This document shows, in pieces, positions 1,850 through 52,215 of a DNA stretch of 64,000 nt; the first letter of the stretch is position 1; every line of letters begins with the position of its first letter. The stretch is from Unio delphinus. Its lineage: Eukaryota; Mollusca; Bivalvia; Unionida; Unionidae. The DNA lies in NCBI GenBank assembly GCA_029339505.1, contig JAQISU010000033.1, positions 1,916,001 to 1,980,000 on the forward strand, given 5' to 3'. The translations under genes were made by a program, and so were the position numbers. The notes beneath the pieces were generated by a model, which worked only from the letters and a program-made list of their open reading frames with translations, was not told the origin of the DNA and did no database searches.

Positions 1850-14198
<12,349 letters not shown>

Positions 14199-32460: not shown

Positions 32461-32936
32461 GTATGTTGAATTGTAAACTCTTTGCCTCAGTCATACAATA
32501 ATAGTAGTGATAGTTTAGTTGCGAAAATTTTCATGAATTTGTGGTCAAAACAAACAATAAAACTTAAAACTTACAATAAAATGCTTGAATTTTCTTGTAC
32601 AAAAACAGAACATTTACATTCATCATCGCGTAAGAGCCATATAAGTAATTTATACTTTGAAAAAGCCCATCATTTGGGTAGAGTGTATTTTTTTTATATA
32701 AAAATGTGATTACTTGTAACCTAATTTCATATACATTTAATTTTGTTTGCTAAAACTGATGCCACACCTGAAAAGAACCGAAGATCTGCATGGTTTTAAA
32801 TTTATTCAGGTCATCTTTAGAGCTTGACCAAACTTTTCATATGTTAAACCCGTACTAAATGTTTCTTGCATAAAAGACTTTTGGGGTTGAAGACTCTATC
32901 TTATGTATTTAATGTATCATTATTCTTTTTTTGCAG

Positions 32937-34696
32937 TGTTCACCTTAGTCAGTGTTAACTACGTGAACATTTCTAAACCCAGACCTATATGGACCAATTT
33001 CGACTCCCAGTCTGCCCATGAAGACAAACTGCTAAGTATAATCTCTAAGCACACACCTGTTGTCATGACGACGATTATTTGGTCCCCTGGGTTCTCCGAT
33101 TCCATTCCAGTATCTACATTGAGAAAGAACAACAGTGGCGTAATTTCGAAGTCTATCTCAAGCACCATCGTCTCGTGGCCTACGTACAAGTCTCTCGCAG
33201 ACCTTGAGATTGGGTATCCAGTATCAATGGAAGTCTTCCTAAACGAAGGATCTAACGGCGAAGACAGGAGAGCAGATGATGGTGTCCGTAATGAACTTAA
33301 TATCTTCCAAAAGGATGGAGTCAGTAATGGCATCCATGAATTAAGAAACGACAGTTTGATCAGTGGTGTACATGACTTACGAAATGGCAGTGTGAGAGTT
33401 GCCCTCCGTGATTTACGAAATGGAAGCATCAGTAATGGCACCCATGACTTGCAAAACGTTAGTTTGATTAGCGCTGTACATTACTTACGAAAAGCTAGTT
33501 TGAGTAGTGGCATCAATAGCTTTCAAAACGGCAGTATTAGTAATAGTATCAGCGACTTCCGAAACGGTAGTATCAGTACTAGCGTACATAACGTACAAAA
33601 CGGTGCCGTCAGTAATGGCATTCTTCATCTACGAAACGGCAGTGTCAGTACAAGCATACAAGAATTACGAAACGGCAGTGTCAGTAATGACGTCCATGAT
33701 ATACGAAATGGAAGTGCCAGTAATGGAGTCCTTAACTTTAGAAACGGCAGTATCAGTAAGAGTATAACTTACTTACGAAACGATAGCAACAGCAATGGTG
33801 TCAGTGACCTACGAAACAGGAGTGTCAGTAATGGCGTCAGGGACCTACGAAACGGCAGTGTCAGTAAGAGTGTAACTTACTTACGAAACGACAGCAACAA
33901 CAATGGCGTCAGTGACCTACGAAACAAAAGCAACAGCGTTGGTGACCTACGAAACGGGAGTGTCAGTACAAGCTTACAAGAATTTCGAAACGGCAGTGTC
34001 AGTAATGGCGTCCTTGAAATACAAAATGGAAGCATCAGTAATGGAGTCCTCAACTTTAGAAATGGCAATGCCAGTAAGAGCGTAACTTACTTACGAAACA
34101 ACAGCGACAGTAATGGAGATAGTGACCCTAGAAACAACAGCAACAGCAATGGCATCAATGACCTTCGAAACGGCCGCGTCAGTAATGGCGTCAGGGACCT
34201 ACGAAACGGCAGTGTCAGTAAGAGTGTAACTCACTTACGAAACAACAGTGACAGTAATGGCGTCAGTCACCCACGAAACAACAGCAACAGTAATGTCATC
34301 AGTGACCTTCGAAACGTCCGTGTCAGTAATGGTGTCAGGGACTTACCAAATGGCAGTGTCAGTAAGAGTGTAACTAACTTACGAAACAACAGTGACAGTA
34401 ATGCCGTGAGTGGTCTACGAAACGGTGGTGTCAGTAATGGCTTCAATGACCTACGAAACGGCAGTGTTATTAACGGAGTGAGTGACCTACGAAAGGGCGA
34501 TGTCAGTGACGGTGTCATTAACCAACGAATCAGAATTGCCAGTACTAGCGTCCTTGGCTTACAACATGGCAATACCAGCAATGGCGTCCATGATTTACGA
34601 AATTTTAGTGTCATTAATGGGATTCGTGACTTAAGAAACAAGAGTGCCAGTAATGGTGTCCATGACTTACGAAATGATAGTGTCATTAACGGCTAA
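32937..34696 (+). CDS. Secreted-type N-glycosylated 12-residue tandem-repeat protein
   Basis: No family recognised. About 120 residues of unique N-terminal sequence lead into about 38 repeats of 12 residues with consensus LRNGSVSNGVxD, running to the TAA at 34694-34696. Nearly every unit carries an N-x-S/T sequon (NGS, NDS, NNS, NKS, NVS, NFS). No cysteine occurs in this exon. Regularly spaced L/V/I positions would suit a beta-solenoid (inference). A 48-residue higher-order unit (NGSVSKSVTxLRNNSDSNGV...) repeats near 34050-34400. The left edge follows tattctttttttgcag; alternatively an unspliced ATG at 32903 gives a hydrophobic leader MYLMYHYSFFAVFTLVSV, or the exon begins at 32953. Extracellular or shell/mantle-matrix-like roles are possible but unproven. 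Long minus-strand frames here are by-products of the period. Confidence 0.75.
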
Positions 34697-51101: not shown

Positions 51102-51147
51102 TGTTAGAATGGTTATCTGACGATCCTTACATCAATAGCAGCAGCAA
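51102..51147 (+). pseudogene. 46-bp partial copy of the deaminase-like exon
   Basis: Matches 51701-51746 at 45 of 46 positions (tgttagaatggttatctgac, then gatccttac[a/g]tcaatagc). Homology stops abruptly on both sides. No longer copy was found between 51148 and 51454. Confidence 0.9.
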
Positions 51148-51373
51148 CATCATCCGCTTCACGTTACACGATAACAGCTGTCGATAGGGCAAAACAAACA
51201 CATAGTTCCATGCGAGATTTTATACTGCCCGTATAGTCCTAACTGTACATTAAGTACACAGATTCCTTCCGAACATGTTCGACGTTGTTGTCATTACATA
51301 GGCTAAATTTTCGCTTACAGTGATGGTAGTGGTGTTACTTTAATTTAATAACTATGACTTCACTGGTGACACT

Positions 51374-51507: not shown

Positions 51508-52215
51508 ATGGATGAATCACCAGTGGATGAATATAAATTATACAAGAAGGAATTCTATATCCTATGGTTTACTGGTATAAACGAGGATTTTCCACAAGAA
51601 ACTGTTGCAGTTTGTTCCATAGATATTGATGATGGTTCTACAAGCCTCATCAGGGTGTTTCATTCTGAAGCAGACGATGTTCAACGGGCGGAAGACAAAC
51701 TGTTAGAATGGTTATCTGACGATCCTTACGTCAATAGCAGCAGCAAGATGGATATAGAAATATTTCTAAACCATTCGCCCACGGCCTCGTTCTCGCACGC
51801 TTTTGTTGGATTGAAAGAAGTATTCGATGACCAGGAAAAAGATGTAACTATATTCATTCGCATTGTCAGGGTCTCAAACGTTGATGACGAAGACAGTATA
51901 GAGACTATGGAAAATAGAGAAGGTTTATGCCTTTTAAATGAAAACAACATCACGCTTTCGCCTGTTTCGGGTAAGGATTGGACATATCTAAGAGAGGTTC
52001 TTCGAGAAAACAGAGGACTTCGAGTTCAGAATGAAACCAGCGTGTTGACACGAACGAAACTAGCTAATATTCTTAACAGACGACAGTCTGTAGCAGTAAG
52101 AGTGGAACCAATAGTTGTAGAAGCGGAAATACAGACGGATGCAACGGGTGAGGAACCTAGCCAGAAACCAAATAAGAGACACTCCTCTTCGTCTTCATCT
52201 GATGAAGATAACTGA
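51508..52215 (+). CDS. AID/APOBEC-like deaminase-fold protein with lost zinc cysteines (predicted pseudo-deaminase)
   Basis: Open for 235 codons from ATG 51508 (context aagATGg) to TGA. The same frame is open back to a possible acceptor attacag at 51454, so upstream codons may also be coding. Residues 15-50 give FYILWFTG and ETVAVCSIDI (first strands). HSE at 52-54 matches the catalytic H-[AS]-E. IEIFLNHSP at 83-91 matches the strand before PCxxC, but the motif reads P91-T-A-S-F95, with both cysteines replaced at exact spacing. VTIFIRIVRV (113-122), REGLCLLNENNITLSPVSGK and DWTYLREVL follow in the family's order (GL..L...gi.l......W). The C-terminus is acidic and Ser-rich. Active members use His and two Cys to bind zinc, so this one should not be catalytic by the usual chemistry. 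The intact frame argues against simple decay. Family assignment is by motif reading. Confidence 0.7.
   Translation: MDESPVDEYKLYKKEFYILWFTGINEDFPQETVAVCSIDIDDGSTSLIRVFHSEADDVQRAEDKLLEWLSDDPYVNSSSKMDIEIFLNHSPTASFSHAFVGLKEVFDDQEKDVTIFIRIVRVSNVDDEDSIETMENREGLCLLNENNITLSPVSGKDWTYLREVLRENRGLRVQNETSVLTRTKLANILNRRQSVAVRVEPIVVEAEIQTDATGEEPSQKPNKRHSSSSSSDEDN

Follow-up and report, generated by a model that had tools for sequence, protein, structure and literature searches.

The 64,000-nucleotide stretch of the Unio delphinus genome analysed here (contig JAQISU010000033.1, positions 1,916,001 to 1,980,000; the window) carries a gene at 51508..52215 whose product is probably a pseudo-deaminase, a metal-free member that has been preserved within the AID/APOBEC family of immune-type, DNA- and RNA-editing enzymes. 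Its protein (P0001) matches deaminase profiles and is predicted to adopt the AID/APOBEC fold, and the residues that would bind zinc are replaced in it and in all of its relatives found. Judged from these residues, P0001 is very probably non-catalytic; a protein-binding or regulatory role is a tentative suggestion. Coordinates are those of the window, and all features of this gene are on the forward strand.

Membership of the AID/APOBEC family

In profile searches P0001 exceeds the curated cut-off for NAD1 (37.2 bits, E 4.2e-9), for SNAD4 (31.5 bits, E 2e-7) and for APOBEC_N (28.2 bits, E 2.3e-6), and its APOBEC4 score equals that model's cut-off as printed (27.2). Among 14 control genomes, NAD1 and APOBEC_N had no match and SNAD4 had matches in two, both below its cut-off. 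Models and fold comparison predict for residues 12-192 (51541..52083) a five-stranded sheet with the helix and strand order of AID/APOBECs. In the model, residue 61 begins helix alpha2 and residue 93 begins helix alpha3; the starts of these helices are the places of the two zinc motifs in AID/APOBECs. The C-terminal tail (residues 193-235, 52084..52212) is modelled with low confidence (predicted local distance difference test, pLDDT, below 50); its end is made up of a basic patch, a run of serines and acidic residues.

The family profile aligns to APOBEC3F (E 0.01) in the same register as the paralogue alignment described below, pairing HAE with the KAE position, SPCPEC with sPlatF and YKDFKYCWE with GKDWxYLRE. 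The last of these, GKDWTYLRE in P0001 (51970..51996), is strongly conserved in the family alignment. A profile search of solved structures was needed to recover APOBEC3F. Searching the PDB with the single sequence returned no APOBEC (four rows, designed barrels and a 'hub' protein, best E 0.0031), and identity to solved APOBECs is 11-18% among the 50 fold-comparison matches listed; both observations would fit a chance resemblance with no relation to the family. We reject this explanation, to which we give next to no probability, on the strength of the three scores over curated cut-offs and the fold comparison. The homology is well above chance, and P0001 belongs to the AID/APOBEC family by descent.

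Protein-database searches found ten relatives in total (8 of 258 candidates, then 10 of 5529, including the same 8). The alignment counts below take in all ten and P0001, 11 proteins. Among the relatives, P0002 comes from Sinanodonta woodiana, a bivalve of the Unionidae, and the sequence of P0011 begins without a start Met. All ten carry the Pfam accession PF18785 as a precomputed label, taken here to denote an invertebrate AID/APOBEC clade; the clade was likely defined by the survey of AID/APOBECs in metazoans published in PNAS in 2018. The hmmscan library used did not return PF18785 for any of the six of 11 members scanned (P0001, P0002, P0004, P0006, P0010 and P0011), for P0001 even at E 10. 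NCBIfam gave no family for the three proteins submitted. Since the relatives are labelled PF18785 in the database, the pseudo-deaminase family has probably been catalogued by sequence already. What may be new is that all 11 members examined lack the whole zinc triad. No report of the mussel family was found in the literature searched, which did not cover the 2018 PNAS survey, so a prior mention is possible; nor did searches on Inv-AAD, on PF18785 or on cytidine deaminase pseudoenzymes in connection with zinc and APOBEC give a paper.

Loss of the metal site

In a joint alignment of the 11 family members with three paralogues from the same genome, HAE falls over R60-A61-E62 (51685..51693) and PCxxC over P91-T92-A93-S94-F95 (51778..51792), and the APOBEC3F alignment places both motifs at the same positions. 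The zinc-ligand His of HxE is replaced at residue 60 by Arg (4 of 11 members) or Lys (7 of 11). The first Cys of PCxxC, at residue 92, is replaced by Thr in two members, Leu in four and Met in five, and the second, at residue 95, by a bulky Phe in all 11. The His and both Cys are all missing from each of the ten relatives. The catalytic Glu of HxE, the proton shuttle, is kept at residue 62 in 11 of 11. All four branches of the family (P0001/P0002, P0003-P0009, P0010 and P0011) share the three losses, which on the alignment would therefore most simply predate their split. When the family was compared with the paralogues by hhalign, only the half with PCxxC was aligned (probability 61%). The alignment to the family profile extended to the HAE region for a single paralogue of the three (score -1.4). 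Support for the HAE match therefore comes from the MAFFT alignment, APOBEC3F and the model.

The first-pass annotation, made from the sequence alone, had described a protein that keeps HSE and has lost both PCxxC cysteines. The segments on which it relied (IEIFLNHSP, then PTASF at the place of PCxxC, REGLCLL and DWTYL) are all present, and both Cys are indeed gone. FHSE also exists at residues 51-54 (51658..51669), but it is a look-alike, rejected as the catalytic motif: it aligns elsewhere than HAE, lies at the end of strand beta2 in the model, and is poorly conserved (three of 11 members have His at residue 52, and two the full HSE). The erasure of the metal site consequently goes further than had been proposed, as the His is lost too, and the residue kept is the catalytic Glu. 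From FHSE to the Pro of PCxxC there are 36 residues, and 28 from the true HxE site. A passage of PMC5956068 gives the HxE-to-Pro range as x(24-36), and the position of FHSE at the edge of this range may explain its misreading as catalytic.

Conservation, locus and paralogues

The frame at 51508-52215 runs uninterrupted from ATG to stop (235 codons plus stop), as the first-pass annotation had stated; when its bases were shuffled 2000 times, the longest stop-free run was 175 codons, and none reached 235. Inspection shows a favourable translation context at the start codon (CCAAGATGG), and P0002, which is 95% identical, shares the start Met. By this match alone, the window would be assigned to the Unionidae or a close neighbour of that family. 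A possible splice acceptor (TTATTACAG) lies upstream, ending at about 51454, and a 5′ untranslated exon is therefore a possible candidate. The N-terminus of P0001 (MDESPVDEYKLYKK) is charged and without a hydrophobic run, which makes a signal peptide, as in the secreted AID/APOBECs (SNAD), unlikely. A whole-genome search with the protein (2.5-Gb genome, 13 candidates scored) matched a single locus, the window's own.

Between P0001 and P0002, 3 of the 181 domain positions (residues 12-192) are different, against 12 of 54 outside the domain (Fisher 2e-6), or 3 of 181 versus 10 of 52 without two gap columns (Fisher 2.4e-5). The tail, residues 193-235, holds 10 of the 15 differing positions, two of them gaps. 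Across the 11 proteins, 54 of the 235 positions are invariant. The pattern argues for purifying selection on the metal-less domain, at the protein level and for one species pair, which is distinct from a ratio of nonsynonymous to synonymous substitution rates (dN/dS). Because all ten relatives are without the ligands and the differences lie mostly outside the domain, the gene looks conserved as a metal-less protein. This agrees with the pseudo-deaminase proposed in the first-pass annotation.

The loss of the metal site could also be expected of a decaying gene copy without function, and a fragment of coding sequence upstream implies that the locus has been rearranged. Such decay is highly improbable and disfavoured here, given the 235 stop-free codons, a relative in Sinanodonta with 95% identity, the absence of all three ligands from each of the 11 members and the concentration of conservation in the domain. 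The fragment itself (51102..51150) is 49 nucleotides long, 96% identical to coding bases 51701-51749, and is separated from the start codon downstream by about 360 bases. Its codon for residue 75 is Ile, as in Sinanodonta; that of the gene is Val.

Three other AID/APOBEC-like frames are found in the same genome, on contig C3 at about 22.56-22.69 Mb, within about 130 kb of one another. Two of them (L002 and L004) are matched by the NAD1, SNAD4 and APOBEC_N profile searches and the third (L006) by APOBEC_N only. They resemble P0001 in being AID/APOBEC profile matches of one genome, and differ from it in keeping HAE and PCxxC, both present in the open piece read of each, and in being less acidic (net charge of the aligned pieces -1, -1 and +9, two of the three being partial). 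A stop interrupts the matched stretch of L006, and L004 has a long repeat-like N-terminal region. A tree of 14 rows separates the family from the paralogues with full support (100/100); with very long branches between the two groups, three sequences flagged as long (L004, P0011 and L002) and a midpoint root, it shows that the family is distinct and not in what order events occurred. A homologue search with L002 gave none among 233 candidates at E 0.01 or better, and the outside PCxxC-bearing sequences in the comparison are the APOBEC3F rows only.

Elsewhere in the window, a 601-codon open frame (32891-34696) consists mostly of 12-residue repeats rich in RNGS/NGV, with a 36-nucleotide unit, and matches no Pfam family at E 0.1. 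A protein-kinase exon lies at 10742-11089 (PK_Tyr_Ser-Thr, E 2.1e-6, above its cut-off) and a probable transmembrane exon at 1828-2193 on the same strand (TM_ErbB1, E 4e-4, below its cut-off); the two perhaps belong to one receptor kinase gene.

Activity, possible role and comparison with known systems

With the His and both Cys gone, P0001 would not hold the water-activating zinc, and cytosine deamination is for this reason very unlikely. The vacated site would be packed by Arg/Lys 60 and Phe 95. Residue 90 of human AID is the second Cys of PCxxC. Two published controls fit the expected loss of activity: human AID C90F serves as an inactive mutant in PMC9795746, and in PMC5956068 hardly any activity was left in a sea-urchin deaminase that combined His-to-Arg and Glu-to-Gln with changes of both Cys. 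An enzyme with residual or altered activity, in which the Glu and the Arg or Lys support metal-free or other-metal chemistry or the hydrolysis of a small molecule, would account for Glu62 and for Arg or Lys at residue 60 in all 11 members. We consider it improbable, as the deaminases known from this superfamily depend on zinc bound by a His and two Cys (motif in portions of PMC5956068 and PMC11004436) and the second Cys is uniformly the bulky Phe.

Several points weigh against a preserved metal-free pseudo-deaminase. The constancy of the Glu in 11 of 11 members is more than a dead site needs and leaves a small chance of residual or different chemistry; at a guess, Glu62 might form a structural salt bridge with Arg/Lys 60. 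The loss of the His alone is not decisive, since a sea-urchin double mutant (His-to-Arg and Glu-to-Gln) showed only a modest drop in activity in the section of PMC5956068 describing it. The relatives are database proteins, so that their frames are open by construction. The NAD1 and SNAD4 genome searches listed the window's gene; the whole-genome APOBEC_N search at E 0.001 listed the three paralogues and not this gene, whose relation to the APOBEC_N model is weak. Finally, conserved blocks such as WxxDDP and GKDWxYLRE are family-typical and by themselves mark no new interface.

As for what such a protein might do, the first-pass annotation had offered nucleic-acid binding as one example. A non-catalytic binder of viral or retroelement single-stranded DNA or RNA could block copying without editing, like deaminase-independent APOBEC3 restriction; in its favour, APOBECs that bind nucleic acid have the fold predicted here, and the tails of P0001 and P0002 carry a basic patch. 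The charge of the domain lends this role no support so far, with a net value of -9 to -15 in all 11 members. In APOBECs the site is lined by loops L1, L3 and L7. Placed from the model, these loops are acidic in most members (P0010 departs from this in L1 and L3), and neither L1 nor L3 holds an invariant residue across the 11. We consider nucleic-acid binding rather unlikely. Because the domain and most of these loops are acidic, we rank above it a protein-binding role, in which the domain would bind other proteins, the likeliest form being that of a regulatory or scaffold subunit; possible partners are the active-type paralogues encoded in this genome or another innate-immune factor.

In its boldest and doubtful form, this would amount to a whole animal family with a fixed metal-free arrangement (Arg or Lys, the kept Glu, and Phe), in which a former editing enzyme is now an acidic partner or decoy controlling the active deaminases of the mussel. 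If the preserved pseudo-deaminase is real, what the fold does in structure and in partner binding would be separable from its chemistry, and the deaminases of an invertebrate would be seen to include, within a single genome, specialised non-editing members alongside active-type paralogues.

SpAIDL of sea urchin and LaAIDL of brachiopod likewise belong to the AID/APOBEC-like proteins of invertebrates, and some of them gave no measurable activity when assayed in bacteria, but PMC5956068 describes their active-site residues as conserved. With NAD1 (PF18778) and APOBEC_N (PF08210) the P0001 family shares the profile match over the cut-off, the predicted fold, the order of elements and a KDFxY-type motif, and it differs from them in the replacement of the zinc His, Cys and Cys and in its acidic domain. 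AID/APOBECs not known to be active, such as APOBEC2 and APOBEC4, are described as keeping the zinc site. ADAT3, from another deaminase family, has lost the Glu and still has the zinc ligands, so that the situation is the opposite of that in P0001. It is a pseudo-deaminase all the same, the pseudo-catalytic partner of ADAT2 (PMC10354150), and sets a precedent for a protein of this kind that regulates an active deaminase.
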